Source of the DNA: a virus
Direction: 5' to 3' (one strand)
Virus record (IMG/VR): IMGVR_UViG_3300028569_000071
Coordinates: 1 to 40,596 of that record
Length of the DNA stretch: 40,596 nt
Of the stretch, positions 6,934-27,337 are shown piece by piece. How positions within the stretch are numbered: the stretch's first letter is position 1; every line of letters starts with the position of its first letter. Position numbers and translations under genes: made by a program. The notes beneath the pieces were generated by a model that saw only the letters and a program-made list of their open reading frames with translations, searched no databases and had not been told where the DNA came from.

Positions 6934-6934
6934 A

Positions 6935-12926: not shown

Positions 12927-13655
12927 TTAGCTTAATTTAGCCTCAAGTTTTCTCTTTTGAGCGGTAAGTTCTTTTAGTTTAGATAAGATTTCTTTTTCTT
13001 TTTCAGTTTCTTTATCTTCTTTGGCTGATTTGTATTCTTTAGCTAGCGATTTCATCTCCATTGCTACTTTAACAAGCTGATTGGCCATTGATATGATTGA
13101 ATCTTTTTTACCAGAAGAAGCATTTTTTATAGCTTTTTTATCTATTTCATCCTCGTCTATTTCTTTAACTATTCTGATAGTATCTTCAGGATTAGCTTTA
13201 GATTTTACTTTATCTAGATCCTCAGGTTTTACTTCAATAGTGGCTTCCTTCATTGATTTTTTTAAATCAACTGCTTTAACCCAAGTATCAGGTCTTCCAC
13301 CATATTTTAGATTTTTAATATAAATTCTATCATCAATTATACGAGTAATTTCATGATTCATTCCTTTATATTTTACTTTATCTCCTACTTCAAATCCTTC
13401 AGGTTTAACCACAGGACCTACTGAACGAGTTTCTTCGGTCATCATTCCTTCTTGGTTTTCAAGATAATCAATGATAGCTTGAGGATTATCAGTATGTTCC
13501 ATCCATTTCATCATTACCTCTTTAGCGTCATCTGACATATTAGCTCTACTTATTAGAGCATAAATTTGGTCTGTCATAGAATCATCTCCACCAGAAAGCA
13601 TTTCAATAATTTCTTCACGGATGGCTTTTTTAAATTTTTCTTTAGTCATTTTCAT
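12927..13655 (-). CDS. Unknown protein upstream of terminase, coiled-coil C-terminus
   Basis: This 242-aa protein is not a family I can name. Residues 1-20 form an amphipathic helix (KFKKAIREEIIEML) that recurs in four other proteins here and contains IRE at 12-14. Residues 88-131 look like a small SH3/KOW-type beta barrel (GDKVKYKGMNHEITRIID, then WVKAVDLKK). The C-terminus (about 188-242) is a strongly charged coiled coil. It lies six bases before the terminase gene, where T4 encodes the small terminase subunit gp16. A small-terminase role is possible from position and the coiled coil, but nothing in the sequence proves it. Its start overlaps the upstream stop as ATGA. Confidence 0.7.
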   Translation of the reverse strand: MKMTKEKFKKAIREEIIEMLSGGDDSMTDQIYALISRANMSDDAKEVMMKWMEHTDNPQAIIDYLENQEGMMTEETRSVGPVVKPEGFEVGDKVKYKGMNHEITRIIDDRIYIKNLKYGGRPDTWVKAVDLKKSMKEATIEVKPEDLDKVKSKANPEDTIRIVKEIDEDEIDKKAIKNASSGKKDSIISMANQLVKVAMEMKSLAKEYKSAKEDKETEKEKEILSKLKELTAQKRKLEAKLS

Positions 13656-13921
13656 AGTTCTTGTATTTGTAGTATTAATTTCCCGTTTCCTTTTATTAAA
13701 CGATGATATGTTTGTTCCTGTATAAGTATGTGAGTGTCTTTTTCAAGTCGAATAGGCAGACAATTATCATGTTGGAAGAACCAATCTTGTCCTTCCAGTA
13801 CTGTTATTATACGACTTTTAAGGTCCCTATGCCACATAAGTTCAATAGGATCTATATCATCTCCAAACTCCCTTATAATTCTGTTTTCAGATGAGAATGT
13901 GTCCTTATATGGTCTTGACAT
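13652..13921 (-). CDS. Small cupin-like beta-barrel protein
   Basis: The 89-aa product has the pattern of a minimal cupin-type barrel: MWHRDLKSRIITVLEG, then WFFQHDN, LPIRLEKDTHILI and YHRLIKG. The His residues (in MWHRD and TYHRL) sit where cupins place metal ligands. Similar short proteins are common in T4-like phages, with no known function. It overlaps the downstream gene by four bases (ATGA), so the two are co-translated. Confidence 0.65.
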   Translation of the reverse strand: MSRPYKDTFSSENRIIREFGDDIDPIELMWHRDLKSRIITVLEGQDWFFQHDNCLPIRLEKDTHILIQEQTYHRLIKGNGKLILQIQEL

Positions 13922-13942
13922 AACTAGTTTTTAGTTTTGGGT

Positions 13943-14209
13943 TTAATCTTGAGGTTGGTCTTGATTTTTATCTTTTTTAAAGATACGAGTTGCAGCCCCT
14001 AAACCTAATGCACCAAATGCTAATGCAGCTACTGACTGGATTAACATAGGGGAAGGAGCAAATTCCTCAGTTGTGAATTGGTTGTGGTACATTGTTACAC
14101 ATAAAGATAATGCACACATAATACCTACAAAACGGTTACTAGAGTAATTTCCTTTGTCGTCTTGAAAGATTTGCATAATTAAAGAGGTACGGCTAAATAG
14201 TTTTTTCAT
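13943..14209 (-). CDS. Small two-helix membrane protein, possible holin
   Basis: I start this at the ATG at 14209 (88 aa) because the earlier ATG at 14278 lies inside the upstream gene. Two hydrophobic segments are visible: RFVGIMCALSLCVTMYH (about 29-45) and LIQSVAALAFGALGLGAATRIF (about 55-76). A short polar loop joins them and the tail is charged (KKDKNQDQPQD). Size and topology fit a class II holin, which opens the inner membrane at lysis, but many small phage membrane proteins look like this and no endolysin lies next to it. Confidence 0.65.
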   Translation of the reverse strand: MKKLFSRTSLIMQIFQDDKGNYSSNRFVGIMCALSLCVTMYHNQFTTEEFAPSPMLIQSVAALAFGALGLGAATRIFKKDKNQDQPQD

Positions 14210-14259
14210 AGTTTTAAATATTAAGGTTAAGCCGACAACCAATTTATACAACATATTTT

Positions 14260-16206
14260 TTATTTTGTTTTTCCCCATGTTTTTCCTTTACCTTTATCTT
14301 TACATTTGGCTGCTGTAGGACGACATGAAGGATATTTTGAACGTTTTTCTCCTTTTTTTCTACCGCATGCTTTACATTTGGTTTTTCCATCTGTAGTTCT
14401 GCATGTATTACAATCAACCCAACCACCTTCTTTACCAGAGGGACCTTGGCGTTTGAACCATTTATTTAGAGATTCATCTTCTTTTAAAACAGCTAAATCT
14501 TCATAATCTTCATCTAAAACTTTAATTTTAGTTTTGCTAGTTATAACTTTATGATTATTATCAACATAAATAAAAGGTGATGTCCATAAAATCATATTAC
14601 CTAGATACATGACCATTTGAAAGTAATTAGTTGGATTTTTCGCTTTATTAGCAAAATCAATTTCGTCAACACCACCAAATAAGTCTTGGGCTATTTTGTA
14701 TAATAAATTTCTAGCCACCATCTCATTTATTAAAGCAGTATCATTTCCATATTCATTTTTCCATTCCTTAATTCTATCTTTTATTTCTATATTGAATTCT
14801 TTATACGGGATTTTGTATGTTTTAATCTTAGATGAGATATCTTCTTTTATTTTAGTGTATCCTGAGCTATATGGGGATGATTTATTATCATCCTTAAATG
14901 ATGTAGGGTCTAAATTCTCAGAATTAGTATTCTTACGAGTAATTGTAATATTATTTTTAGAACTTGTTGAATCTACCTCAAATTTAGATGGGTCTAATTG
15001 TTTGTTAATATAGGCCATATATAGTTTCCATCGGCGATCATCCTCTATGGATTTTTTGGATGGAGATATTTCCAATGTTGTTATAGTTTTATTTTCATCT
15101 AGAAACTCTTTAACAATTTGAGTTATAGTGGCCATTACAGAAAACATTTCACCTTTGTTAGTAGATGATAAAAATACTGTAGGTATTTCACCCCTTCTAG
15201 CTAATTCTAAAGATTCTTTAGTAAAAAATGCCACATCAGCCATTTCTTCAAAATATTCAAATCTTACAATATATTCTGTTCCTAAATCAGTTGTAAAACC
15301 ATACTCAATTTTCCAACCTGTATCTTTTATTTTAGAATATGGATATATTTTTGCACCTGCATCTCCTATTTCTTGTAAATTATTTATTTTGGTTGGAGTT
15401 GGTATATTACTATCTTTATATTTATTAAACATAAAGTTTACCATTTGGGTGTCATCAGTACTTAATCCTTGTTCTAGTTTAGGTGAAATTACTATAGCAG
15501 GTATCATATGGTTATTTAGTCTAAAAGCATAAACTCTATGTATCCCATCTATTGCTTTGTATGAATTAGGCCCTGTTTTAAGAGCTAAAATAGGTGGGAA
15601 TTTTGAAGGATCAATTTTTGAATATTTTATTGATGTTGGATTTTTAGGATCATCTGATAAAGAATTCCATTCAGATGGTTGGATTTGATTAGGATTAAGT
15701 AATGTTATATAAGATTCTTTTTTCCAGTCAATGTTATCATCTTTTAAATAACTATCTAAATCTTGAGAATATTCATCATCAGGATCATTATATGGTTCTA
15801 TAGTAGTTAAATTAGATAATATTTCTTCTTTTAAATTTTTCCAAATTTTACCTTTTCGACATCTAACCACAGCTCCAGACTTGTAAGCAGAGGGTTTATC
15901 AAATTTACGGTCTGCTATACGAAGACAACGGTCACGTTTTGTTTTTTCTTCAGATATAACTTGTTGGATTACTTCTTTTATTTTCTGTTTGGTTAAATCA
16001 TCATAATCAACCATAGATAAAATACCTTTTTGTTTAGTACCCTTGATTGCTTTTTCAGCCATATTATGTAAATCCATATCGTCTTTAGCATCTTCTCTGG
16101 CGTATTCTAAAGAACGAATAAACAAAGGAATATCCATGGTGATAGTGTCAATTTTATCCTCTGTTGGTTTAGAGAAAAACTCTTGTATTTTTCTTAAATC
16201 CTTCAT
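14260..16206 (-). CDS. Mosaic protein: ParB-like fold, domain X and Cys-rich basic C-terminus
   Basis: This 648-aa protein combines several modules. Residues 1-9 end in IQE, a possible gp21-type site. Residues 25-52 (PLFIRSLEYAREDAKDDMDLH) and 91-123 (RCLRIADRKF ... PSAYKSGAVVRCRKGKIW) are modules I recognise from phage proteins of unknown function. Residues 166-242 resemble a ParB/sulfiredoxin-type domain (LLNPNQIQPSEW, then IDGIHRVYAFRL). Residues about 300-426 are a copy of 'domain X', which occurs twice more in the 948-aa protein. SSPYSSGYTKIKE (443-455) also recurs there. The C-terminus (589-648) is basic and Cys-rich: VDCNTC, CKAC, SCRPTAAKC. Function is unknown. I infer a DNA-associated protein packaged in the head. 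Confidence 0.8.
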   Translation of the reverse strand: MKDLRKIQEFFSKPTEDKIDTITMDIPLFIRSLEYAREDAKDDMDLHNMAEKAIKGTKQKGILSMVDYDDLTKQKIKEVIQQVISEEKTKRDRCLRIADRKFDKPSAYKSGAVVRCRKGKIWKNLKEEILSNLTTIEPYNDPDDEYSQDLDSYLKDDNIDWKKESYITLLNPNQIQPSEWNSLSDDPKNPTSIKYSKIDPSKFPPILALKTGPNSYKAIDGIHRVYAFRLNNHMIPAIVISPKLEQGLSTDDTQMVNFMFNKYKDSNIPTPTKINNLQEIGDAGAKIYPYSKIKDTGWKIEYGFTTDLGTEYIVRFEYFEEMADVAFFTKESLELARRGEIPTVFLSSTNKGEMFSVMATITQIVKEFLDENKTITTLEISPSKKSIEDDRRWKLYMAYINKQLDPSKFEVDSTSSKNNITITRKNTNSENLDPTSFKDDNKSSPYSSGYTKIKEDISSKIKTYKIPYKEFNIEIKDRIKEWKNEYGNDTALINEMVARNLLYKIAQDLFGGVDEIDFANKAKNPTNYFQMVMYLGNMILWTSPFIYVDNNHKVITSKTKIKVLDEDYEDLAVLKEDESLNKWFKRQGPSGKEGGWVDCNTCRTTDGKTKCKACGRKKGEKRSKYPSCRPTAAKCKDKGKGKTWGKTK

Positions 16207-16210
16207 TTTG

Positions 16211-16219
16211 TTATATGTA
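16211..16219 (-). promoter_or_regulatory. Recurring TACATATAA motif at gene junction
   Basis: The exact 9-mer also forms the last codons and stop of the upstream gene (ends Tyr-Ile-stop) and lies 4 bases before the next ATG. Overlap with coding sequence weakens the promoter reading here. Confidence 0.2.
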
Positions 16220-16831
16220 TGTTTTATTCATATCATAGTAGAATGAATCCCCATCTTCTGTTATCCATTTATCAGACTGATTTTCTACAGAAGGTAATTC
16301 AGTATCTACTTTATATTGCTTTAGATCCTCAGGTAATTTTTTAGTTACCCAATTTGAATCTTTCCAAAATATTCTATTATTAGGCATACACATTAAGTAT
16401 CCTTCATCTGATTCAAATATATGCCCACATTTATAATCTGAAGGTTCATCACTATATGGATTATTAAACCAGTCTATAGTAAACATATAAGTACCCCAAA
16501 CTTTGGTTCCATCTCTTAAAACAATTTGTGCTCTATGATGTGCTAAAAAATCAAATTCAGTGACAGCTACATTTTCACTAAAACAATCCCATAATTGTTT
16601 AAAATTAAATGGAATATCATTTGTTGGTATTTTTGTATAAATTTCTGAAATAGGAATCCTAGAACGAACCATTCCTGTGTCTGTCATAACATGAAATGTT
16701 AATATAACTCCAGAAACAGATTGAATGCCAAAAACATATACATTATAAAATTCGTTATTATCTTCTTTATTTTTAGTAAAATAAGATTTACGAACTAATG
16801 CTTTAAAACTTGGTATATTTGAATTTAACAT
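16211..16831 (-). CDS. Conserved phage protein, unknown function
   Basis: I use the ATG at 16831 (206 aa), directly after the upstream stop (TAATATG); the longer frame would need a GTG inside that gene. The sequence is mixed alpha/beta with many aromatic residues. Conserved-looking blocks are LVRKSYFTKN, EFYNVYVFGIQSVSG, LTFHVMTDTG, QLWDCFSENVAV, VWGTYMFTIDW and PNNRIFWKDSN. I recognise this as a protein shared by diverse tailed phages, but I know no function for it. No signal peptide or membrane segment is visible. Confidence 0.75.
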   Translation of the reverse strand: MLNSNIPSFKALVRKSYFTKNKEDNNEFYNVYVFGIQSVSGVILTFHVMTDTGMVRSRIPISEIYTKIPTNDIPFNFKQLWDCFSENVAVTEFDFLAHHRAQIVLRDGTKVWGTYMFTIDWFNNPYSDEPSDYKCGHIFESDEGYLMCMPNNRIFWKDSNWVTKKLPEDLKQYKVDTELPSVENQSDKWITEDGDSFYYDMNKTYI

Positions 16832-16832
16832 A

Positions 16833-17444
16833 TTACCAAAATCCACTAAAATTTTTATCTCCTCCTAGTTGTTTCCAATATCTACCAATTCTACAACTCC
16901 AATATGAAGGTTTTGTTTTATCTTTCTTTTGAGCACAATTATGACGTTTAGCAAATGCTTGTCTAGCCTTAGGATCGTTTATTTTTACAGATAATCCAGT
17001 AGTTCCACCAAATGAAACTTTTTTAATTTTTTTAGTTTTAGGATCTCTAACATAAACATAGAATTTTTTAGATCCACCTCGTTTTGGTTTTCCAATAGGT
17101 TTATTTTCTTTAGATTCAGCTAGATCTTCTTCTAACATAGGAAAATCCAATGGTACTTTAGTACCATCCTCTAATATACCAAATTCACCTAGATGGGTTT
17201 CAGTTAGTATTTCTTTATCATCACCATAAACTTCAATTATACCTCTTGAGTATAATGCTCTAGCTTCAGCCCATAAATTAAAATAAGCGGAAGAACCAGC
17301 TCGGTATAATTGTTCTGTTATGGGTTTCTTGTTATCAAGGTGGTATTTCAGCCCTTCAGACAATATAGCGCGTGGGGCGATGACCTCATTAAGCATCATT
17401 GTTATCGGTTTTGTTTCGCAAGTATTACATCCGCATTTACACAT
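16833..17444 (-). CDS. Cys- and Lys-rich protein with conserved C-terminal module
   Basis: This 203-aa protein starts with a Cys cluster (CKCGCNTC, residues 2-9), then MMLNE ending at residue 20 and AILSE ending near 29, both [L/I]-x-E. The C-terminal third is a basic module I have seen in many phage proteins: RGGSKKFYVYVRDPKTKK, VSFGGTTGLSVKINDPKARQAF, KRHNC and KPSYWSCRIGRYWKQLGG. Its 'PSYWSCR' resembles the PS/CR elements in the next gene cluster member (648 aa). The start follows the upstream stop as TAATATG. Function unknown; DNA or RNA binding is plausible from the charge and Cys/His content. Confidence 0.75.
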   Translation of the reverse strand: MCKCGCNTCETKPITMMLNEVIAPRAILSEGLKYHLDNKKPITEQLYRAGSSAYFNLWAEARALYSRGIIEVYGDDKEILTETHLGEFGILEDGTKVPLDFPMLEEDLAESKENKPIGKPKRGGSKKFYVYVRDPKTKKIKKVSFGGTTGLSVKINDPKARQAFAKRHNCAQKKDKTKPSYWSCRIGRYWKQLGGDKNFSGFW

Positions 17445-17445
17445 A

Positions 17446-18585
17446 TTATTTTATTTTTTCAAATTTATCTCCTTGTAATTCATAAAGATTTGAAGATGAA
17501 AAAGCTGTTGCTTTAGTCATCACTATAGCTTCATTATTCTTGATGCCAAACATTGTTCTATCTCCTCTATAAGCTGCTGTTAAATATGGTTGGTAATCAC
17601 CTCCAGGCAATTCTGGAGGGGTAAGTTCATGTTCTGCTGTTAATTCATATGTATTACCTGAGGTAGATTCTAGTTTTATTTTTCCTTGTAATATGATATT
17701 AACATTGTCTGGTCCATTATTTTCACCATATTTAGGACCATATATTAGTTTTCGTATTAATTCATCATCTTTTATAGGAGATATGAATCTTGAGGCTCTA
17801 GGTAAACCTTGACCAGGATTATTTTCTTCAACCCATTTTTCTAAAGCTTGATTGAATTTTTTAACTTCAGGATGATCAGCATACATTGTATATCCACTCC
17901 ATCTTATAAAATCATTAGCAGTGGGACCTTTTCCTCCTGCTTTTTTATGAGATATAAAAACTACAGGTTTATTGTCTTTGTCAATTAAGTTAAAATCAGA
18001 TTTAGGAACCCCAGATTGAGATTCAGCTTTAATAATATCTTTATAAATTTTATTTCCTACTTTAATATCAATAGGACCTCCATTTTCCTCAACTAATTTT
18101 AGAATTTGGTTATTTAGTATTTGCAGGTTAGCATCTTCAACAACAGTTCCTGAACCTTTTCCTTTACCACCAAAATAAGAGTCTTTTAAAAGATCAGAAA
18201 TACTATATTGTTTTCCTGTGTCATCTTTAAAGAAGGGAAAGGTGTTTACATTTCCTGATGATAAATTTTTGATAGCATTATCATCTTGGGATAGGAATAC
18301 ATCAGAATGTTCTGGGTTGGTAAATTGGAGAGGGGTTGATTCTCCATCAACTAGATTAAAAGGTAATTTTTCTTCTATTTTTCTAGCTAGGTCTGCAAAT
18401 CTGTATCCTCCTCTTTTCTTTAAATCAAAAAAAGTAAGGGTTTTAAAATTATTCTCGTTCAAACTAAAACCTATTTTATTTAATTCAGTTTCCAACAATA
18501 AAATATCCTGTTCATCATTGATGTCAGGATATCCTTTTGGGAATTTATATGATATATTATGTAGAAACTTTGTGATTGGGTCCAT
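17446..18585 (-). CDS. Conserved phage protein with nuclease-like D...SHK motif
   Basis: This 379-aa protein is a type I recognise from T4-like phages, with no established function. The N-terminus MDPITKFLHN closely resembles MNPISQYLVN of the 948-aa protein. A GGKGKGSGTVVED segment (139-151) is followed by PKSDFNLIDKDNKPVVFISHK (194-214). E150, D197 and K214 would fit a PD-(D/E)XK-type active site in which the usual Glu before x-Lys is replaced, but this is a pattern guess. A Gly/Pro-rich C-terminal region follows (ELTAEHELTPPELPGGDYQP). It overlaps the upstream stop by one base (TAATG). Confidence 0.75.
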   Translation of the reverse strand: MDPITKFLHNISYKFPKGYPDINDEQDILLLETELNKIGFSLNENNFKTLTFFDLKKRGGYRFADLARKIEEKLPFNLVDGESTPLQFTNPEHSDVFLSQDDNAIKNLSSGNVNTFPFFKDDTGKQYSISDLLKDSYFGGKGKGSGTVVEDANLQILNNQILKLVEENGGPIDIKVGNKIYKDIIKAESQSGVPKSDFNLIDKDNKPVVFISHKKAGGKGPTANDFIRWSGYTMYADHPEVKKFNQALEKWVEENNPGQGLPRASRFISPIKDDELIRKLIYGPKYGENNGPDNVNIILQGKIKLESTSGNTYELTAEHELTPPELPGGDYQPYLTAAYRGDRTMFGIKNNEAIVMTKATAFSSSNLYELQGDKFEKIK

Positions 18586-19034
18586 TATATTTCTTCTTCA
18601 GGTGCCTCTTCCTCTGTTGGTGGTTCTTCAATTGATGTATCTGCTGGTGTTGTTTCCTCATCCTTAGATTCTTTAGGCCCGTATCTTAATATTCTAGCTA
18701 TAGCTTCAATTGCATGTTGTTCTTCAGCTAAATTTAATAAATAATATCGTTTTCCCAAAACAATTGCAACCCAACTTCTTCCATTCCATTCAAGATAAAA
18801 ATCTTGATCATTTTTCAAATTTATACGGAATGTAGTTGGTTTTGGAGCTACCCAATCTATAGAAGATAAGAAATTATCAAAATCTGAGGTCAATAAGTCT
18901 ACTATGACTTTTTTAAGCTCAGGAAATTTAGTTAATTCATCATATTCTTGAGAAATAAGATTAACTTTCTTTTTTTCTCCTTTGATGACCTTAACTAAGG
19001 TTTTGATTTTTTCTTTTAGTTCTAGTTCGGTCAT
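18585..19034 (-). CDS. Small conserved phage protein, unknown function
   Basis: The 149-aa product has a helical N-terminus, then a central block SSIDWVAPKPTTFRI followed by DFYLEWNGRSWVAIVLGKRYYLLN, which looks like a small antiparallel sheet. The C-terminal 35 residues are disordered and extremely acidic (many Glu, Pro and Thr). I recognise the central block from other phage genomes but know no function. It overlaps both neighbours (ATGA with the gene upstream, TAATG downstream), so it belongs to a coupled operon. Confidence 0.7.
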   Translation of the reverse strand: MTELELKEKIKTLVKVIKGEKKKVNLISQEYDELTKFPELKKVIVDLLTSDFDNFLSSIDWVAPKPTTFRINLKNDQDFYLEWNGRSWVAIVLGKRYYLLNLAEEQHAIEAIARILRYGPKESKDEETTPADTSIEEPPTEEEAPEEEI

Positions 19035-20206
19035 CTATTCTTTAGTTTATTTAAGATAATTTCAGCTAATCCTTCAGTTGGATTTTCAGCGCTTAATTTA
19101 GCAGCTACAGCCATCTGGCGTTTCTTTTCTTTTGATTTATCTTTAAACTGTGGAGCATCACTCTTGGCAAAATCTTTAATATATTTTTTCATTGGTGTTT
19201 TTGCTGTGAGTTTTTCATCTAAATATGGTTTTAAAATTTTTTTAGCAGCTTCAATATTACCATCATTCATAGCTTTTCTAGCTTGTTTGATGTTGTTTTG
19301 GTCTTCAGCTGATTTATTTTTGTTTGATGCTTTTTGAATATCAGCTGCTAATTTATCAATTTCGCCTACTTCATCTTCCATTATTGGAGCATCATCAATT
19401 ACTTCTTCACTAGAAGCAATACCCACCATAGCATCAACTTGAGGTTCTTTTAATTCAAACTCAAGATAATGTTTAGCTGAAGACATCATACTTGCTGCTT
19501 TGATAATTTTGGCCTGCCACCAATGTGGGAAATCTACCTCACCTTGACCCTCAAATCTATCTACCATTTGGTATAATTCCATAGCGTATTTTCCTATTTT
19601 ATATAGGTCAGCTTTTAACATATGGGGTTCATCATCTGTATGACCTAGGTCTAGATCTTCATCTAAGTTTAATGGAGATGTTTCTATAGAAAAATAATAT
19701 CCTTGCAAACCAGTTTCACCTTCTAATTCTTGGTTTAAATAGAATTCAGTACTATCAGCATCTGCTTGATCTTGTACCTGAAAGTAAAAAGTTTTAAACT
19801 CGTCACTTATCTCAAATGGATAAAAATCTGAGTTGGATTCAAAATGTTCTTTAGCTCTTTCAAATTCGTTAGGATCTTTAAAAGTTAAAGCTAAAGTATC
19901 TACTTCTTCAGAGTATTCTTTAAGTTTAACACCTCTGCCTTTTAAGATATCGGCTTTAGTTACTTTACCATCTCCAGTTAAATCAGGAAATTCTTTTTTT
20001 TCACTTAAAGCCTGATGGATTATTTCTCGGATTCTATTTTCTTTCATTTCTGTTGAATTTAATGCGGTTTTAAGGGCTCGACCATGGATTACTTTTTCAG
20101 CATCAGGACCATATCTTTTGATTAAATCTTTAACATTTTTAATCATGTTAAATTTAACCTGGTTATATTTGGTTTGGTCAAATTTTTGTCCTGATAATGT
20201 ACCCAT
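19031..20206 (-). CDS. Mosaic helical protein with EF-hand-like calcium loop
   Basis: This 391-aa protein strings together motifs familiar from phage proteins of unknown function. Residues 57-69 are an amphipathic helix (NRIREIIHQALSE). Residues 75-86 form a calcium-loop pattern (D75, T77, D79, T83, D86: DLTGDGKVTKAD). Residues 189-255 contain HTDDEPHMLKADLYKIGKYA and GQGEVDFPHWWQAKII, a helical block. The C-terminus has an Ala/Lys/Asn-rich repeat-like helix region and KSDAPQFKDKSKEKKRQMA. The product is strongly acidic in the middle and basic at the end. Calcium binding is an inference from the loop alone. An internal or structural virion protein is plausible. Confidence 0.75.
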   Translation of the reverse strand: MGTLSGQKFDQTKYNQVKFNMIKNVKDLIKRYGPDAEKVIHGRALKTALNSTEMKENRIREIIHQALSEKKEFPDLTGDGKVTKADILKGRGVKLKEYSEEVDTLALTFKDPNEFERAKEHFESNSDFYPFEISDEFKTFYFQVQDQADADSTEFYLNQELEGETGLQGYYFSIETSPLNLDEDLDLGHTDDEPHMLKADLYKIGKYAMELYQMVDRFEGQGEVDFPHWWQAKIIKAASMMSSAKHYLEFELKEPQVDAMVGIASSEEVIDDAPIMEDEVGEIDKLAADIQKASNKNKSAEDQNNIKQARKAMNDGNIEAAKKILKPYLDEKLTAKTPMKKYIKDFAKSDAPQFKDKSKEKKRQMAVAAKLSAENPTEGLAEIILNKLKNR

Positions 20207-20272
20207 TATGTGATTTTTTATTTTTATGTTATGATGTTATGGTTTTAAGATCTTCTAGGTTATCAGATTTTT

Positions 20273-20575
20273 TCATGCAATTCTATAATTTATTTTTTCT
20301 AATTCATCCTCAAATTCATATAAAGTATCATCTCTTTCATCCATAGCTTGTGATTCACTTCCCATTCCCTTAGCTGCTTTAAAGGCACTTTTCATAGCTG
20401 ATTCAATTTCTTTTTTTAACTTTAAAACTTCAGCTTTTTTATTTGCTGGGCCTATCAATTCAGCACCGGTGTATAACTCTATAGTTATTTCTTCATTTTC
20501 ATTTAATATTTTAGAGATTTCTTCTTTCAATAGCTTACCTTCAGCTAAATATTTTCTTAAATCAAAGTTGTCCAT
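20273..20575 (-). CDS. Small protein with capsid-targeting-like N-terminus
   Basis: I start at the ATG at 20575 (100 aa); the longer frame would begin at a TTG with a low-complexity Lys/Asn leader. The N-terminus MDNFDLRKYLAEGKLLKEE is a type I have seen repeatedly at the start of small T4-like phage proteins, and LAE at 10-12 fits the gp21 cleavage consensus. The rest is helical and charged (VLKLKKEIESAMKSAFKAAK, then a Glu/Asp-rich end). Function unknown. It resembles the design of T4 internal proteins, which have a short cleaved leader and a small charged body. Confidence 0.75.
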   Translation of the reverse strand: MDNFDLRKYLAEGKLLKEEISKILNENEEITIELYTGAELIGPANKKAEVLKLKKEIESAMKSAFKAAKGMGSESQAMDERDDTLYEFEDELEKINYRIA

Positions 20576-20594
20576 TTTGTTTTTGTTTTTATGT

Positions 20595-20765
20595 TTATTT
20601 TTTATCTTCAGCAACTGATGCTTTTTTATATTCAGTTACTAGTTTTTTAATTTCACCTAATGCTTTGCGAGCTCTACCATGAGCAGCTTTAGATGGTTTT
20701 GAATGTTCAGATTTAGCTTCAAATAATAAAGATTCAATTTTGTCAAAAATTTCTTGTGTATTCAT
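20595..20765 (-). CDS. Histone H1-like (Hc1-type) small basic protein
   Basis: This short gene has an ATG at 20763-20765 and a TAA stop at 20595-20597 and encodes 56 aa. The sequence fills the space between two real genes exactly: 20 bases before one start, 15 bases after the other stop. The product is helical and Lys-rich. Its second half, KAAHGRARKALGEIKKLV, matches the pattern of the Hc1-type histone H1-like proteins common in Bacteroidota (a conserved 'RARKAL..IKKL' stretch). Such proteins bind and compact DNA. A role in condensing packaged or replicating phage DNA is an inference. The family also supports a Bacteroidota-type host. Confidence 0.75.
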   Translation of the reverse strand: MNTQEIFDKIESLLFEAKSEHSKPSKAAHGRARKALGEIKKLVTEYKKASVAEDKK

Positions 20766-20779
20766 AATTTTTATTTTTT

Positions 20780-21358
20780 TTAGTTCATGTCAGTTTCTTG
20801 TCCAACGATATGGACACGAGTATAGAAAGTAATAGTATTACCAATTTGGTCAACAAGTTTTTCATCACCTAATGTTTTGGCTCCATCCAAAGCAGTTTTA
20901 AGAGAATCTAGGATATCATCTGGGTTACCTTGAGGTGTTTCTTCAGTTGGCATTTCTTCAGTATCTACTGTTTCAGTGTCTTCAATTTCAACGTCCTCTT
21001 CTTCTTTTTCATCTTTTTTGGCCTCAGCTAAAGCCATTTCCCTAATCATGTTTTTGAAGTCTGATTTAGAGATACGTGAAATGTTTTCATTCATCATTAG
21101 AGAATCAACATATTCTTTGGCTAGATCATGTATTTTTCCTTTTTTAAACATATTATCACTAATAAATTTATCTATTTCTTCTGAGGGTAAACCTGCATCT
21201 TTCAGTATATTTCTAGCCATTAATATTGGAGATGATGCATTTTTATCATACCCTATAGGATCAGAAAACATACCTGTTTCATCTATTTTTGATTCTTGAA
21301 CCAAACCTGCAATTTTTTGCATACGTTTGAATTCTTCGCTTAATATTTGTTTTTTCAT
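20780..21358 (-). CDS. Acidic helical protein with LSEEFKRMQKIAGL leader
   Basis: The 192-aa product begins MKKQILSEEFKRMQKIAGLVQES, an N-terminus I recognise from numerous phage proteins of unknown role. LSE at 6-8 fits the gp21 cleavage consensus. The 'FKRMQKIAGL' stretch is similar to the C-terminal RFKKIAGI of the scaffold protein, suggesting a shared binding peptide. The middle has a helix FKNMIREMALAEA (101-113) of the type found in four other proteins here. A Glu/Thr/Asp-rich linker (about 116-145) precedes a final helical domain (DDILDSLKTALDGAK). No enzyme motif is visible. Packaging into the prohead is a reasonable inference. Confidence 0.75.
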   Translation of the reverse strand: MKKQILSEEFKRMQKIAGLVQESKIDETGMFSDPIGYDKNASSPILMARNILKDAGLPSEEIDKFISDNMFKKGKIHDLAKEYVDSLMMNENISRISKSDFKNMIREMALAEAKKDEKEEEDVEIEDTETVDTEEMPTEETPQGNPDDILDSLKTALDGAKTLGDEKLVDQIGNTITFYTRVHIVGQETDMN

Positions 21359-21381
21359 ATCTGTATTTTATTATATATATG

Positions 21382-22008
21382 TTATGATCTTTTTTCAGTT
21401 TGGTAATATAGATAACTAGATAATAGTGAACCTATAACACCTATTTTTTGACGAATAAATATCCATTCATCTTTTGTGAATTTGTGAGGTTTTTTAGTAA
21501 ATGAAATAGATAATACTCCTATAAATTTATCATCTAAATCATGCAAAGCCCAAGTGTACCATGATTTAACCTCATATTCTTTAACCATATTTTGAAGTCC
21601 AAATTCATCATCCTCAGGATAGTTTATCAAGGCTATCTCTCCATCTTTATGAAGTTTGGATATAATTTTAGAAAATAATGATACTGGGATATTTTGGAAT
21701 GTATTTTGGATTGATGGAGTTTCTGAGGATACTTTTTCATAAAAAATAGAGAATTTTTGTATTGAACGGCCTGTAGGGTAAAAATGTCCTCCATTATGGA
21801 ATTGGGCTAACCAAACTCGGTCACACTCAAGTTCATCCATTATAATATCTAGCTGGTTATCTATCCGTTCATTAAATTCAATGGCGGCAGTTAATTCAGA
21901 GGGTTTTTTATCTTTTTTATGTAGACGATTTTTAACCCATTCTAGGGCTATAGGGCCTATAACAGCGGTAATAAAGGCTACAATTACAGTAATAATTCCA
22001 GTTGTCAT
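21382..22008 (-). CDS. Membrane-anchored GAF-like domain protein
   Basis: This 208-aa protein has one N-terminal transmembrane helix (about 4-25, IITVIVAFITAVIGPIALEWV) and a basic stop (NRLHKKDKK). The rest resembles a GAF-type sensor domain: helix IDNQLDIIMDELECDRVWLAQFHNG, then strands around KFSIFYEKV, GEIALINYPE and FIGVLSISFTKKP, ending in a helix. GAF domains bind small ligands or mediate dimerisation. No output domain is attached, so it may sense or bind something at the host membrane. It overlaps the upstream gene as ATGA. The GAF call comes from the pattern of strands and is moderately secure. Confidence 0.7.
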   Translation of the reverse strand: MTTGIITVIVAFITAVIGPIALEWVKNRLHKKDKKPSELTAAIEFNERIDNQLDIIMDELECDRVWLAQFHNGGHFYPTGRSIQKFSIFYEKVSSETPSIQNTFQNIPVSLFSKIISKLHKDGEIALINYPEDDEFGLQNMVKEYEVKSWYTWALHDLDDKFIGVLSISFTKKPHKFTKDEWIFIRQKIGVIGSLLSSYLYYQTEKRS

Positions 22009-22574
22009 TTTTTTAATGAATTTAAATAGTTAATGGTTTCTTCTAAGTTCTCTATAACTTTTTTATTTGAACCCCCACCCCAACTTTCAACGTCACCTTG
22101 TTCTGTTATAAATGAACTATTTGAATCATTAACTTGCTCTTCAACCCAATCCTTAAAATCAATTATGAAATGTTCAATATCTGAATTGTGGATATTTTTA
22201 TGGTATTCTTCCCATGCTCCTATTCTTTTTAATTCAGTTTCAAAGTCTATAACACAATCAAAACATTTTTTATGTATGTTGTAATAATCTTTATCAAAAC
22301 GTTTTTTCATTAAATTATTACATGAAGGACAAAATAAGGGAGTTAGATGTGCTTTTTTAGCTTTATCTAACTTAGTTATATTTTGTTTTATACCATTTGT
22401 AATAGTCCATTTTTTCCCGTTTTCTTCCCATACATCTCCTTCTTCATGGTATTGTGCGACTTTACTATAGCCTACTTGAATACCTGTTTTATCCCCATAT
22501 TTTTTGGTGATTAGGTTTCTTAATCGAGCTATATCTTTTTCCTTGAACTGTTTATTTAAAATACTTTCCGCCAT
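22005..22574 (-). CDS. Zn-ribbon protein, unknown function
   Basis: The 189-aa product contains a four-Cys zinc ribbon: CPSC (82-85) and CFDC (104-107), with 18 residues between. Before it lies a conserved-looking stretch (GDVWEENGKKWTITNGIKQNITKLDKAK). After it is a helical segment (RIGAWEEYHKNIHNSDIEHFIIDFKDWVEEQV). I recognise the arrangement from other T4-like phages but know no function. The C-terminus has a short Gly-rich WGGGSNKK linker before a final helix. It is coupled to the downstream GAF-like gene by an ATGA overlap. Confidence 0.7.
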   Translation of the reverse strand: MAESILNKQFKEKDIARLRNLITKKYGDKTGIQVGYSKVAQYHEEGDVWEENGKKWTITNGIKQNITKLDKAKKAHLTPLFCPSCNNLMKKRFDKDYYNIHKKCFDCVIDFETELKRIGAWEEYHKNIHNSDIEHFIIDFKDWVEEQVNDSNSSFITEQGDVESWGGGSNKKVIENLEETINYLNSLKK

Positions 22575-22583
22575 AACTGAGGT

Positions 22584-23132
22584 TTATAATTTAGGTACAA
22601 CTTGTATATTTAATATATATTTTTTTCTTATGTTATCAAACAGATTGAACGGAGTAGGCATATACATTTCTTCTGGGTTATCATGCCAATCTTGTTCCCA
22701 CTGTGGTCTATTGCGGTATGGTACTGATTTTAGATGAATAGAGCCATTACGCTTAACATACCAAGTGTGGTATCTCAAATCAACCAATTGTAATGTTGAA
22801 TCTGTAGGGTGGTAATAAAGCAATCCATTGTATTTTGCAGCCACACTTAACCAGTTATATAGACTGTCAATATTGGTATTTAATACAATTGTAGTTTCAG
22901 TGGTTTGTTCTATTTTCTCTCTCTGAGCAGTAAACACCCTGTTAATCTCATCAGCCTGAGATTTCAACATTATAACTACAGTGTCTTTGCGTATTACCTT
23001 AGTTATCGGATATTGCGCCGATAGTGAATTTTTTGCCATCCCCAAGATCGTCATCATCATCACGCTTACGAGTAGGGGCAGGTGTTGAAGTTGCTTCTTC
23101 AACAATTGAGTCAAGTTGGTGAATTTGTTCAT
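22584..23132 (-). CDS. Probable envelope protein overlapping the previous gene; start uncertain
   Basis: The open frame is 182 aa from the ATG at 23132, which would overlap the upstream gene by 134 bases in another frame. Later ATGs at 23060 and 23039 give shorter overlaps. The long version has a signal-like N-terminus: two Lys, then LPLLVSVMMMTILGMA and a possible cleavage near SLSAQ. Part of that hydrophobic run comes from the Asp codon repeat of the overlapping gene, so it may be fortuitous. The body has ITKVIRKDTVVIML, a helix and an aromatic-rich C-terminus. It has no Cys, so it is not a lipoprotein. A spanin-like lysis role is possible given the overlap and neighbours. Confidence 0.6.
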   Translation of the reverse strand: MNKFTNLTQLLKKQLQHLPLLVSVMMMTILGMAKNSLSAQYPITKVIRKDTVVIMLKSQADEINRVFTAQREKIEQTTETTIVLNTNIDSLYNWLSVAAKYNGLLYYHPTDSTLQLVDLRYHTWYVKRNGSIHLKSVPYRNRPQWEQDWHDNPEEMYMPTPFNLFDNIRKKYILNIQVVPKL

Positions 23133-23340
23133 CTTTCTGTTTAATTACTTGTTTAAGTTGTTTTGTTGTTGCAACTAGAGTATCATTGGTATGCTTGATC
23201 TCTGTATTTTCCTTAACTAATTCAACTGCTGTTTCTACAGTTTTGTGATGTTTTTGTCCAACAGTACCTAGTTGACCTAAAACTAAAGCTAGGCCTCCAC
23301 CTAGGATACCTAGCATTGCTGTACCTTTACCTATTTTCAT
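22999..23340 (-). CDS. Small membrane-anchored coiled-coil protein
   Basis: This 113-aa protein has an N-terminal hydrophobic helix (about 8-24, AMLGILGGGLALVLGQL) followed by a long predicted coiled coil (about 28-82, KTVETAVELVKENTEIKH through IKQKDEQIHQLDSI). A Pro/Thr linker, a run of five Asp and a short tail follow. Single-helix anchor plus periplasmic coiled coil is the topology of an inner-membrane spanin, and the next gene starts inside it, as in Rz/Rz1 pairs. It overlaps the upstream gene as ATGA. Function remains unproven. Confidence 0.65.
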   Translation of the reverse strand: MKIGKGTAMLGILGGGLALVLGQLGTVGQKHHKTVETAVELVKENTEIKHTNDTLVATTKQLKQVIKQKDEQIHQLDSIVEEATSTPAPTRKRDDDDDLGDGKKFTIGAISDN

Positions 23341-23657
23341 TTTTTACGGGTTGTAGTTCGTGATCGAGTTGTAGTACGCTTTGGGGTTGATTCCTCTAAG
23401 ATAAGATCTTTTAAGTCTCGAAGTGCCTCTGTATTGTTATCAATACTTGTTTTTAGGTGTTGCTGGTCACCTCTAATATACTCAGTCATTTCTTTTTGAA
23501 GATCATCCACTTGTTTTTTAAGGATATCCTCTGATTGTAGTTGGCGCTTCAACATAAACCACAATGCTGAGCCTAGACCTAATGTAATTACACCTAATGC
23601 TCCATATTGGGATAATGTTTCAAAAACACCTAACGATTCTGCTTGTAGTAGTATCAT
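23337..23657 (-). CDS. Small membrane protein with coiled coil, BhlA/holin-like topology
   Basis: The 106-aa product has one transmembrane segment (about 16-36, YGALGVITLGLGSALWFML). A charged coiled coil follows (KRQLQSEDILKKQVDDLQKEM), then a helix (DNNTEALRDLKDLI), and the protein ends in a very basic Thr/Arg tail (TTTRSRTTTRKK). Short N-terminal anchor plus coiled coil resembles holin-like or spanin-like phage proteins. It is first in a run of three overlapping envelope genes (23657 to 22584), the best candidate lysis cluster here, but no endolysin is recognised next to it. Confidence 0.6.
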   Translation of the reverse strand: MILLQAESLGVFETLSQYGALGVITLGLGSALWFMLKRQLQSEDILKKQVDDLQKEMTEYIRGDQQHLKTSIDNNTEALRDLKDLILEESTPKRTTTRSRTTTRKK

Positions 23658-23677
23658 TTAAGTAAAATTTAGTTCAA

Positions 23678-23686
23678 TCATATGTA
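23678..23686 (-). promoter_or_regulatory. TACATATGA variant of the intergenic motif
   Basis: A one-base variant of the TACATATAA motif lies 21 bases before the ATG of the 106-aa membrane protein. Confidence 0.2.
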
Positions 23687-23690
23687 TGTA

Positions 23691-26537
23691 TTAAAGACCT
23701 AAACCTTTTAGTTTCTGTATAGTTTCTTCAGCAGATTTATGTAAAATACCTACTCCACCTTTATTTTCCCATTCTATAATAGTATCAGGTCGATCATCTA
23801 TTAAAATAGCATTTGGTTTAGCATAGTCTTGTTTATTTACTCTGGAGGCTAAAACTAATTTAGTGCCAGGAATATGTTTTTTAACCCATAATCTTTTACC
23901 TAGTCTAGATTCATTATTTCGAGATGGGGCTGATAGTAGGGTTGGTTTATATTTTTTAATATATTCCCATAGTTGTTTACCATCTTGCATCCAAGGGATA
24001 CCCACCCAAAATCTTACTCCTATTTCATTGTCTATGAAATTCCAAAATTTTTCAATACCATATTTTTCTTCATATTGGTCAGGACTCATTTTAGCTAATT
24101 CTCTAAATCTTTTATCAAAATCGGCTAAAACACCGTCCAAATCACAATATATGATATAGTCTTGTTTTTGTTCTTCTAAACCTTGAGCCAACTCACGGGC
24201 ATATTGGTTTATACCAAATGGATCTTTTTTAGAGGATTTAGAAATATTTGGTTTTTTTGTTTGATATATTTCTTGGATAACTTGTCTTTCTATTTTCTTT
24301 TTGATACTATTCCGACGTTCTATTTTACTTTTAGAATTTATATCACCATTTTGCCAGTAAGATAAGGCTTGTTCATAAGACTCATTTAAAGTTTCCATAC
24401 GTTTTTTAATACCAGATTGATGTACTTCTTCAATGGAGCGTAATACTATCCTGTCTTCATCACTATTATCAATTTTATATCTATTATTTAGTAATGTTTG
24501 AAGTTTATCAACATACATTTTGTATAATTTAGTTTTAGCTCCTGTATTACCTGATATATAGATTGCTTTGGGATTATTTGTTTTTAACCAGTCCTCTAAT
24601 ACTTTAAATGAAGTAGCAGTGACTTGTTTCCAAGCTTCTGGGGTTTTATTTTTATTATCTGGTGTGAAAAACCAATTCATAGACCATATATCTCTTTCAG
24701 GGATTTCTAATTTAATGTCATATTTGGCCTCTATATCATCTCCATTACTCACTATATATAAGTTTTTGGATACTTTATCTATAATGGGTAAATCTTTTTC
24801 AAATAGTTCATTTAAAACATACTGTTTATATTCTTTTAAATATTCTTTAGATTTAGATTCATTAGTATTATTTTTTCTTTGTAAAACTATAAATCTTCCT
24901 TTACCTTGAGGTGAATCAAATTGAAGATTAGAATCTTTTCTAAAATATCCAGGGATTAATTTAAGATTATTATCTGTAAGTCTATTATAGACTGTATGAT
25001 AATTTTTATCCCCAGTATTGTCTAATGAAGATATACCAATATATGTTGGTTTTTCTTTTTCTATAAAATCCACTATAATTTTATACATAGTAGACAGTAT
25101 TTTTATATAATTTTCTTTTCCACCCTTTGGGGTTGAGGTTACCTCCCCTCGAGGAGTAAATTGAATATTATAGAATGTTCCTAAATCTTTATAAGGATTA
25201 GATATATTTTTTATACTATATTCATATGTTATATCACCCACAGTAAATGTTCCTCCAGTTAAATCTCCATTTATATCCGCTGCATTTTCTTTAGATAAAG
25301 AAATTTCATTTATATTTTCAACAAGATATTGTTGTATTGTTTTTGGTTGATTAAATTTAGGAATATCTAAGTATAAAGATTCATTTAAATTGTCAGTCCA
25401 ATTTCTGAATGTCATTGTACCTTTTAGATTAGCTTCAGCCTCAATATCATTTAAATGATCATCTTCTTGAGTGTTTGTAGTTGTGATATTACCTAAACGA
25501 TCTTCAATATTTTGCATATGGTGAACCATTTCATGAGAAAATGATCGTAGAATATCTTTTGGATGTCTCCCCTCAGTATATAAAACTATAGTTTGAGTAT
25601 TAGGATCATAGTAAGCGGTTTTGCCTAGAAAATTTTTAGCATTTTCTTTATCTCCATGTTTGAAAATTATTTTAGGTAATGGTAAGATATTCCATCCATC
25701 TTCAATCATATAGTTGGTCAATTCTTTAATATAGGACTTATAGTCTATATCTTTGGAATATGAGGCATTTTCATTTAGTTCTTTATAACCTGAACCATAT
25801 GGAGCTGATTTACCAGTGTGGTTAGGGGCAACATTTTCTTGGGTATTGTCTAAGATATTATCCACTATAATTTTGTCTCCATCTCTAAAAACATTAAAAT
25901 CTGATGGTACAACATTGGATACAAAAGACGTATAATATTCTATTCTATCAAATTCTTTAATTTCATTTAATTGTTGGGGAGACATTAAAATATCTATAAT
26001 TTGTTCAATATCTTCATCTGAAATATTAGATGGAAGATAAGATATAACCTCGGATTTATCTCCTGTTTTTAAAGCTTGTCTTGCTTTAGTTCCACTAATA
26101 TTGGATAATGGAGTGATGACTTGTGAGGCGGTAATATTAGGATATTTTTCTACTGTTTTAGTTCGGTTTATGAAATCCTTCATATCATCTTCATTATCTT
26201 GTCTCCCACCTATAACCCATATAATATTTTCCTGAGGATTTTCTTTTGAATAGTCAAATATTGCTTTAACAGGAGATGGTACAGAAATAATTTCTATATT
26301 GAATGGAAAATATTTTTTATATATGTTCCATATATCAACAGACTGCTGTTGAGTTATTCCATCTCTTTCACCAGAACCAACAAAAATGATATATTTGTTA
26401 AATTGGGGATGTTGTTCTAAAGATTGTTTAACTACCTCTAGATGACCTCTAGTGGGGAATTTAAACCCACCTCCATATATTAAGGTTGTATTATCTTTTA
26501 ATATTTCATTTACTAGATATTGTGATATAGGATTCAT
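23691..26537 (-). CDS. 948-aa fusion: NMN-adenylyltransferase-like, zincin, two X domains, HAD nucleotidase
   Basis: Five domains can be read. (1) Residues 17-160: nucleotidyltransferase of the NMNAT/PPAT class, with GGGFKFPTRGH (22-32) and ISGTKAR (147-153), the nucleotide-binding and ISxTxxR motifs. Such enzymes join ATP to NMN (making NAD) or a similar phosphate. (2) About 257-383: zinc metallopeptidase with HEMVHH (335-340) and a downstream IEAEAN as a likely third ligand. (3) and (4) About 412-556 and 578-702: two copies of an unnamed domain also in the 648-aa protein. (5) About 790-948: HAD-family 5'(3')-nucleotidase with DLDGVLADF (D799, D801), S869 and LIDDRPD (D914, D915). [L/I]NE tripeptides lie at most domain junctions (192, 256, 386, 411, 577, 719). 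The start overlaps the upstream kinase gene as ATGA. The fusion and its packaging are discussed in the findings. Confidence 0.88.
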   Translation of the reverse strand: MNPISQYLVNEILKDNTTLIYGGGFKFPTRGHLEVVKQSLEQHPQFNKYIIFVGSGERDGITQQQSVDIWNIYKKYFPFNIEIISVPSPVKAIFDYSKENPQENIIWVIGGRQDNEDDMKDFINRTKTVEKYPNITASQVITPLSNISGTKARQALKTGDKSEVISYLPSNISDEDIEQIIDILMSPQQLNEIKEFDRIEYYTSFVSNVVPSDFNVFRDGDKIIVDNILDNTQENVAPNHTGKSAPYGSGYKELNENASYSKDIDYKSYIKELTNYMIEDGWNILPLPKIIFKHGDKENAKNFLGKTAYYDPNTQTIVLYTEGRHPKDILRSFSHEMVHHMQNIEDRLGNITTTNTQEDDHLNDIEAEANLKGTMTFRNWTDNLNESLYLDIPKFNQPKTIQQYLVENINEISLSKENAADINGDLTGGTFTVGDITYEYSIKNISNPYKDLGTFYNIQFTPRGEVTSTPKGGKENYIKILSTMYKIIVDFIEKEKPTYIGISSLDNTGDKNYHTVYNRLTDNNLKLIPGYFRKDSNLQFDSPQGKGRFIVLQRKNNTNESKSKEYLKEYKQYVLNELFEKDLPIIDKVSKNLYIVSNGDDIEAKYDIKLEIPERDIWSMNWFFTPDNKNKTPEAWKQVTATSFKVLEDWLKTNNPKAIYISGNTGAKTKLYKMYVDKLQTLLNNRYKIDNSDEDRIVLRSIEEVHQSGIKKRMETLNESYEQALSYWQNGDINSKSKIERRNSIKKKIERQVIQEIYQTKKPNISKSSKKDPFGINQYARELAQGLEEQKQDYIIYCDLDGVLADFDKRFRELAKMSPDQYEEKYGIEKFWNFIDNEIGVRFWVGIPWMQDGKQLWEYIKKYKPTLLSAPSRNNESRLGKRLWVKKHIPGTKLVLASRVNKQDYAKPNAILIDDRPDTIIEWENKGGVGILHKSAEETIQKLKGLGL

Positions 26538-27337
26538 CTACTTAGAAAGGATTGAATTTTAGACTGTGCTTCCTCTTTAGATATTGAGGAATTGATGATA
26601 TTTTGTAGTTGGCTAGACATTAGTATGTCTTGAATTTCAGATTTCAATTTTTGTTCTTGTTCTTTAGCTTTAGCTAACTCTTTGTCTGTTTTAGGCTTGG
26701 AATCAACAGGACGGAAAGGATCAACATATGTTTGTAATATGTCTTCTATATCCTTTAATGTTTCAGATTTACCTGCATTAGACACTGATATAAAATTATC
26801 CCCAAACATTTGTTTATATATGTTGAAATTTTTAGTAATTTCATTCCAGGTTCTTAAAACTATATTTGGATTTAAACTTCGATCTTGTCCTTTAGATTTA
26901 TCAAAACGTTCTTGGTTACGTATTAGAGATGTCTCTAAATCAGTATAAACATATAACATCATAACATCATAACCTGCTTTTTCTAGTTCAGATTTGAGTT
27001 CAGAGGTTTGTTTAATAGAGGCTGATGTACCATCTAAAATAAAAGATTCACGGTTTGAAATGGTGGTTGGAATTTGCTCTTTTTTTAGCTTTTGGGTAGC
27101 TTGAGCCATAGCTTGAGAATACTTACTTCTATTTTCAGCATCGGTTTGTTTTTGGTCTAAACTAAAACCTATTTGTTTAGATAATGCTATAATTGTATCA
27201 TCAACGTTAAGTACTTTTAAGCCACTTAAATTCAAATCATCTAATATAGACCCTTTTCCTGCACCAGGAGCACCTGCTAAAAGCAAGGCTTTAGGTTTGG
27301 ATTGTATTTCTTTTAATAGGTCTATTAATTTGATCAT
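26534..27337 (-). CDS. P-loop kinase, zeta-toxin / polynucleotide-kinase-like
   Basis: This 267-aa protein carries a clear Walker A motif (GAPGAGKGS, 22-30) after the leader MIKLIDLLKEIQSKPK. Next come VLNVDDTII (a DxD-like segment), a predicted lid region and LDGTSASI, then VMMLYVYTDLETSLIRNQER, which resembles the Arg-rich lid of zeta-type and nucleotide kinases. The C-terminus is a charged coiled coil (KTDKELAKAKEQEQKLKSEI). The substrate cannot be read from sequence; phosphorylation of a nucleotide, nucleic-acid end or sugar is possible. LKE at 8-10 fits a gp21-type site. The gene is translationally coupled (ATGA) to the 948-aa fusion, so the two probably act together. Confidence 0.8.
   Translation of the reverse strand: MIKLIDLLKEIQSKPKALLLAGAPGAGKGSILDDLNLSGLKVLNVDDTIIALSKQIGFSLDQKQTDAENRSKYSQAMAQATQKLKKEQIPTTISNRESFILDGTSASIKQTSELKSELEKAGYDVMMLYVYTDLETSLIRNQERFDKSKGQDRSLNPNIVLRTWNEITKNFNIYKQMFGDNFISVSNAGKSETLKDIEDILQTYVDPFRPVDSKPKTDKELAKAKEQEQKLKSEIQDILMSSQLQNIINSSISKEEAQSKIQSFLSR

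Follow-up and report, generated by a model that had tools for sequence, protein, structure and literature searches.

The gene at positions 23691 to 26537 encodes a 948-aa protein in which several enzymes stand in one chain, and the question that it raises is why they are joined and whether they stay joined. The preliminary description had called this an odd fusion, which would be loaded into the prohead and cut at [LI]NE tripeptides; the parts that it had named, namely, a nucleotidyltransferase, a metallopeptidase, two copies of an unknown domain, and a HAD nucleotidase, were all found in our analysis, where the metallopeptidase motif reads HEMVHH, the two copies are DUF6934-like, and the HAD module is a 5'-nucleotidase.

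Layout of the gene and its surroundings

The record of this phage consists only of the 40.6-kb window, i.e., the whole stretch of 40,596 nucleotides that was analyzed. The region around the gene is a T4-type head and tail region, and the phage is of the T4 kind, marine-type, with a probable Bacteroidetes host. Among cultured phages, Flavobacterium phage immuto is the closest relative, and its genes are arranged alike (primase, exonuclease, one further gene, the fusion and, later on, terminase, gp20, gp21, gp22, and gp23). The large terminase gene of the window, of T4 type (10185 to 12920), appears to hold an intein, with Hint and LAGLIDADG matches inside it, and a SegE-type GIY-YIG endonuclease (29131 to 29580, E=2.3e-22) lies between the tail and primase genes. 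The features of the 948-aa gene are the following (residues in parentheses).

23691..26537, minus strand: candidate polyprotein gene, multi-domain, 948 aa (ORF translation)
26505..26537, minus strand: putative capsid-targeting presequence MNPISQYLVNE (1-11), predicted helix 3-12, ending in VNE
26031..26480, minus strand: nucleotidyltransferase module (20-169), NMNAT/PPAT fold, TRGH and SGTKAR motifs
25962..25970, minus strand: LNE site 1 (190-192); [LIV]xE in 18/18 anchorable relatives
25770..25778, minus strand: LNE site 2 (254-256), in a stretch with pLDDT<50, GKSAPYGSGYKE linker box just before
25398..25727, minus strand: HExxH metallopeptidase module MP1 (271-380)
25380..25388, minus strand: LNE site 3 (384-386), in a linker with pLDDT<50
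25305..25313, minus strand: INE site 4 (409-411), closing a linker with pLDDT<50
24882..25298, minus strand: module A of unknown kind (414-552), homologous to module B
24807..24815, minus strand: LNE site 5 (575-577), in a stretch with pLDDT<50
24429..24803, minus strand: module B of unknown kind (579-703), DUF6934
24381..24389, minus strand: LNE site 6 (717-719), turn joining two predicted helices; LNE kept in 5/5 relatives
24267..24380, minus strand: SYEQ module, helical (720-757)
23694..24164, minus strand: HAD 5'(3')-deoxyribonucleotidase module (792-948); separate gene in nearly all relatives

Identity of the enzyme modules

The nucleotidyltransferase has a PPAT/NadD fold, with a best target-normalised TM-score of 0.77 and with PPAT and NadD matched alike, and its catalytic motifs are present. 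The models of NMNAT, NadD, and CoaD all scored far below their cut-offs on this module, and the fold does not separate the three; the earlier idea of an adenylyltransferase that restores NAD is thus left unsupported, since what speaks for it stops at the level of the nucleotidyltransferase superfamily. The HAD module matched phrog_2643 (E=4.6e-26) and HAD folds in the PDB and contains the DxDG...DD motifs, with Pfam NT5C below cut-off. In MP1, the HEMVHHxQN motif is conserved in the alignment of the relatives and includes the HExxH of zinc metallopeptidases; no Pfam peptidase family matched the 948-aa protein at cut-off. The PADLOC models of anti-phage defence gave no match with either the 948-aa protein or its relatives.

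Number and placement of the [LI]NE tripeptides

The six [LI]NE tripeptides reported to end at residues 192, 256, 386, 411, 577, and 719 are all there; shuffling the protein leads to an expectation of 1.02, and fewer than 1 in 500 shuffles reach 6. Elsewhere in the window, such an [LI]NE excess is confined to the gene at 5767 to 6963, which adjoins the gp21 homologue. The tail proteins between 29.6 and 40.0 kb, to which a single LNE had been ascribed, do contain only that one, and one INE besides. For the full-length protein, no clear excess of the plain [LI]xE pattern was seen (17 copies versus 11.8 expected, p=0.06), and therefore its placement is the thing to test; the motif is short, and several of its copies fall inside folded modules. 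What is exceptional about [LI]xE in this protein is where it stands. It had been stated that nearly every domain boundary carries an [LI]NE, which holds for the six sites and not for the last junction, before the HAD module, where IQE-756 and LEE-789 occur instead. A further likely site is VNE-11, at the N terminus.

The protein was modelled with AlphaFold2 as two halves, because the full-length alignment put module B on either the HAD module or module A. The two models have a mean pLDDT of 71 and 75, and their domain packing carries no confidence. Sites 2, 3, and 5 lie in stretches with pLDDT<50 and site 4 ends one such stretch, while sites 1 and 6 are found at inter-helix turns, outside the disordered linkers. 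Residues 3 to 12 are predicted to form a helix.

Related loci are shuffled mosaics

A scan of viral contigs yielded 80 related loci, whose proteins are shuffled mosaics of at least 16 modules and reach 1230 aa in the longest fusion. HAD has its own gene in nearly all of these loci, and in the region from the nucleotidyltransferase to the C terminus both the modules and their order differ from one locus to another; the repertoire includes additional HExxH peptidases and DUF6934-like domains, a zinc ribbon, a basic module, and a Pol-beta-type nucleotidyltransferase, among others. In a relative that is 87% identical (L001), the stretch from LNE-192 to LNE-256 is absent, one site being joined to the other. 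No relatives of the fusion were detected in bacterial genomes or plasmids at the search sensitivity used, and the fusion therefore appears to be of a viral kind.

Some modules of the relatives were considered individually. A reading of the TPD module as T4 RegB was rejected: the Pfam likeness was weak (E=0.07), and the profile gave only calmodulin noise against PDB sequences. The MP2 profile found nothing useful in the PDB. Two rare modules stand between [LIV]xE sites, one possibly ADP-ribosyltransferase-like, with the pattern YHATxxxxLKxIxxxGL...YVYLAxDPxVAxSYAE (L024, 45 to 395), and the other YunG-like (L028, 8907 to 9260; Pfam E=0.004). Moreover, otherwise unlike proteins of these phages share a recurrent linker box with the pattern GK[AS][AS]P[YF]GSGYKx, which often closes in [LIV]xE (in the window at 25770 to 25808 and 14260 to 16206; 14 distinct occurrences when other loci are included).

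The motif marks the junctions

Three tests were carried out on the mosaics. The first makes no use of domain definitions and considers the ends of local homology between mosaics, with 159 supported segment starts; it matters because, in the second test, the seeds of two modules started directly after a site. At positions +0..4 of these starts, [LI]NE was found in 19 of the 159, compared to 1.9 expected, and [LIV][NTKSQE]E in 58, compared to 7.6; reversed, permuted, and other-residue motifs were flat. The second test compared linkers with profile-defined modules: the density of [LI]NE is 24 times higher in linkers, where 58 copies occur versus 7.7±2.6 in composition-preserving shuffles of the same linkers. 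In the third, redundancy was removed by taking a single linker per junction type. Among the resulting 38 types, [LIV][^P]E is present in 36.9, compared to 19.4±2.9 after shuffling and 5.6±2.2 in module interiors, and [LI]NE in 17.5, compared to 1.8±1.4; the mirrored E.[LI] showed no excess (15.7 versus 16.1), and no enrichment was seen for [LI]xD or [LI]xK. The motif is carried by the junctions and not by the modules.

The end of the nucleotidyltransferase illustrates this well, with [LIV]xE in 18/18 cases at a nearly fixed offset, whichever of five different modules comes after. At this site, P3 is V, I, or L and P2 is K, N, D, Q, E, S, or R, while P1 is always E. Furthermore, the middle residue varies at the same junction (LNE, IEE, IQE, LSE, and VKE), and the LNE copies are written with background codon usage in 14 different 9-mers; it follows that the amino acid pattern is what is kept.

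An alignment of homologues had been proposed as a check for LNE at junctions, and it returned a junction-specific motif in a broader form, with a free middle residue. The true motif is [LIV]xE, and LNE is its commonest form in this lineage. Homologues lacking LNE at the junctions, which had been named in advance as evidence against processing, do exist in the literal sense; an example is immuto gp88, which has no [LIV]NE at all and LAE, VKE, and MAE at its junctions. Such homologues still have [LIV]xE or MxE there.

The motif matches the sites of the head proteins

In T4, gp21 cleaves after L/I-x-E (PMC9026906), and a 65-residue propeptide is removed from gp23. The phage does encode the gp21 homologue that had been claimed for it, together with the following head genes.

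5162..5770, minus strand: gp21 homologue, prohead protease (Peptidase_S77, E=7e-30), with [LI]xE near both ends (LIE-7; IKE and LSE near the C terminus)
1609..3234, minus strand: major capsid protein Gp23 (E=5e-74)
3055..3063, minus strand: LNE (58-60 of the major capsid protein), where its maturation is presumed to take place
5767..6963, minus strand: head-core protein, with six [LI]NE (0.39 expected)

The presumed maturation site contains [LV]xE in all 78 gp23 relatives examined; in this phage, it reads QLLNE followed by TSQTGG and was taken as such because it lies near residue 60. In the gp21 homologues, [LIVM]xE stands close to either end, and conserved copies of it are found in gp22. From the sites in these three proteins, the specificity of the lineage is best written as [LIV]xE, of which LNE is one form. 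A genome-by-genome match of the middle residue between capsid and junction sites was uninformative, since the head proteins are themselves variable at this position. The head-core protein at 5767 to 6963, judging from its motifs, is probably broken up during head maturation.

A similar tag stands directly after [LI]xE in the capsid protein (1609 to 3234; LLNE followed by TSQTGGTATFTAGTGEQWAG) and in a small head-region protein (6935 to 7384; KIKE followed by VSTTGGSATFTPGTGGQYATPFAF), as if new N termini had a common motif. In addition, a 203-aa protein encoded at 16833 to 17444 contains nine [LI]xE (1.9 expected) and is basic in its C-terminal part, which gives it the look of a DNA-binding protein of the head that is cut.

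Presequences and a probable cargo cluster

Proteins targeted to the T4 head carry an N-terminal presequence that gp21 removes. In the 948-aa protein, VNE-11 matches the LVNE variant of the capsid maturation site of relatives, with a V in P3 that is outside the strict L/I. Among the nucleotidyltransferase fusions with a presequence, [LIV]xE occurs in the N-terminal extension in 16/16 (after collapsing) versus 9.8 expected, and none of 2000 shuffles reached 16. The stand-alone HADs of the group differ widely in their presequences, and all 25 contain [LIV]xE there (11.6 expected for [LI]xE). The 5'(3')-deoxyribonucleotidases of the phrog_2643/NT5C type have the same HAD module, but most of these outgroup genes start near the catalytic core, without a presequence: in 8/14, the start is at most 12 residues away from the DxDG motif of the catalytic site, and in 5/14, [LIV]xE occurs ahead of the core. 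Of the latter five, two belong to marine T4-like phages (Melnitz-3 and HTVC008M), one has a possibly too-early annotated start, and one is a longer fusion.

A contrast between clades points in the same direction. In the 22 fusions with a presequence, linker [LI]NE amounts to 45 versus 4.3 expected, whereas in the 16 fusions that lack a presequence and start at the core it amounts to 5 versus 2.5, and the [LIV]xE excess does not exceed that of the mirrored motif; 8 of these 16 keep LNE, MAE, VAE, LDE, or MEE right after MP1. Thus, the junction sites accompany the presequence, which is what a common role in head packaging would predict. It also follows from this clade that packaging by such a route is not common to every relative and, considering the lack of [LIV]NE in immuto as well, that the arrangement is not universal.

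Around the gene, the N-terminal motif is concentrated in one cluster.

12927..27337, minus strand: cluster from exonuclease to terminase, probable cargo region; 10/17 proteins with N-terminal [LIV]xE
26534..27337, minus strand: Zeta_toxin-family kinase (E=7.7e-18), N terminus MIKLIDLLKE with a putative cut after it; upstream of the 948-aa gene, 4-bp overlap

In the window, N-terminal [LIV]xE occurs in those 10/17 cluster proteins versus 1/13 elsewhere (p=0.005), and in immuto, it occurs in 11/13 versus 56/187 (p=1.4e-4), p-values that are indicative because the limits of the cluster were chosen after the data had been seen. The mirrored motif gave nothing in the same comparison of N termini. 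The N terminus of the kinase resembles a presequence, and the kinase may be co-cargo.

Comparison with known systems

The packaging and cutting of single proteins are already known from T4 and from giant phages. The T4 internal proteins and Alt have in common with our case a T4-type head, a gp21-family protease, and an N-terminal helix ending in [LI]xE, and would also share with it the cut after E and the proposed ejection with the DNA (PMC9026906). However, each of them is one enzyme or a small protein, with the cut at an end (in Alt, at both ends), while here there are several enzymes per chain, sites at internal junctions, and an exchange of modules. In the giant phages SPN3US, phiKZ, and 201phi2-1, many head proteins are packaged, and a gp21-related protease cuts them after a short motif ending in E (PMC5694885), but the specificity is A-x-E or S-x-E, the sites mostly belong to N-terminal propeptides, and a chain of separable enzyme modules is absent from the literature covered.

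Immuto gp88 (annotated as NMNAT) and gp87 share with our locus the place in the genome, the NMNAT-MP1 core, and an adjoining HAD with a presequence; gp88 is different in having an additional N-terminal nucleotidyltransferase and MP2, and in its lack of [LIV]NE. In phage CBB, a predicted deoxyribonucleotidase (CBB_380) and two NMNATs (CBB_113 and CBB_361) do not appear among the 55 listed virion proteins, a list that is not decisive because CBB belongs to a different phage group. Our literature search returned no virion proteomics for phages that carry the fusion, no study of immuto virions, and, with few subscription journals covered, no report of a packaged enzyme chain separated by prohead-protease sites. 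Retroviral Gag-Pol is a packaged precursor that the viral protease cuts into separate enzymes; the logic is the same, although the proteins and the assembly are unrelated, and no membership is meant.

Interpretation and alternative explanations

Taken at the level of sequence, the comparisons argue that the 948-aa protein is probably a multi-enzyme polyprotein that is packaged into the prohead and processed by gp21, as a variant of the T4-type internal proteins. The earlier proposal of head packaging and junction cutting is thereby well supported, by the [LIV]xE at junctions, the capsid site, the presequences, and their co-occurrence within a clade, with the exception of the NAD role. The N-terminal helix MNPISQYLVNE would act as a capsid-targeting presequence and bring the chain into the prohead core, where the gp21-type protease would cut after [LIV]-x-E, both behind the presequence and between the modules. 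The nucleotidyltransferase, the metallopeptidase, the two DUF6934-like domains, and the HAD nucleotidase (the last via IQE/LEE) would be freed in this way, would remain in the mature head, and would go into the host with the DNA.

Three other explanations were weighed. The best surviving one, which we hold to be unlikely, is that of an ordinary multi-domain protein of the infected cell, joined by recombination and left uncut, in which [LIV]xE only reflects exposed linkers rich in E, K, N, and L. Such fusions are common in large phages, the linkers do differ from the modules in composition, and the presequence-less clade B looks like one; but the composition-preserving linker shuffles fail to give the motif (7.7±2.6 [LI]NE against the 58 observed), mirrored and permuted motifs, [LI]xD, and [LI]xK are without enrichment, and the motif is that of the capsid maturation site and accompanies the presequence.

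It seems a little less probable still that the sites are relics of modules that were once separate head proteins with cleavable presequences, the fusion having kept sites whose cutting is now partial or irrelevant. If so, one would need to explain without continuing selection why the [LIV]..E frame is held at a nearly fixed position despite the varying middle residue and codons, and why nearly every junction type shows the excess, whichever modules it joins. This explanation finds some footing in the stand-alone HADs, whose presequences contain [LIV]xE, in the presequence-like internal helix DPFG[LI]N-x-x-A-[KR] that precedes MP1 or HAD in several fusions, and in a nucleotidyltransferase-fused form (L062) with a presequence-like helix inside.

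That the LNE runs are short DNA repeats, serving as recombination targets for module exchange and having no role as protein sites, is very improbable and was rejected on codon diversity: breakpoints do coincide with sites and TTAAATGAA accounts for 24 of the 65 LNE copies, but there are 14 different 9-mers with background codon usage, the middle residue changes at the same junction, the same motif occurs near the ends of genes without module exchange, and conservation is of amino acids in frame with free codon choice.

Returning to the packaged polyprotein, each module is flanked by its own cut sites, so that modules could be exchanged in frame, which would explain the extreme mosaicism. On balance, though with less assurance than for packaging and processing as such, we favor the view that this is a virion-delivered modular effector polyprotein, in which sites of the prohead protease bound the modules, these are exchanged in frame, and one presequence loads changing host-takeover enzymes in equal amounts.

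If this is true, the modular effector polyprotein would be the phage counterpart of packaged viral polyproteins. It would also provide a rule, according to which [LIV]xE-bounded modules behind a presequence allow T4-like injected proteins to be predicted from sequence alone, that is, the proteins injected at the start of infection. In particular, if they are packaged, DUF6934, several HExxH peptidases, the zinc ribbon, and the basic module would become candidate effectors of the first minutes of infection.
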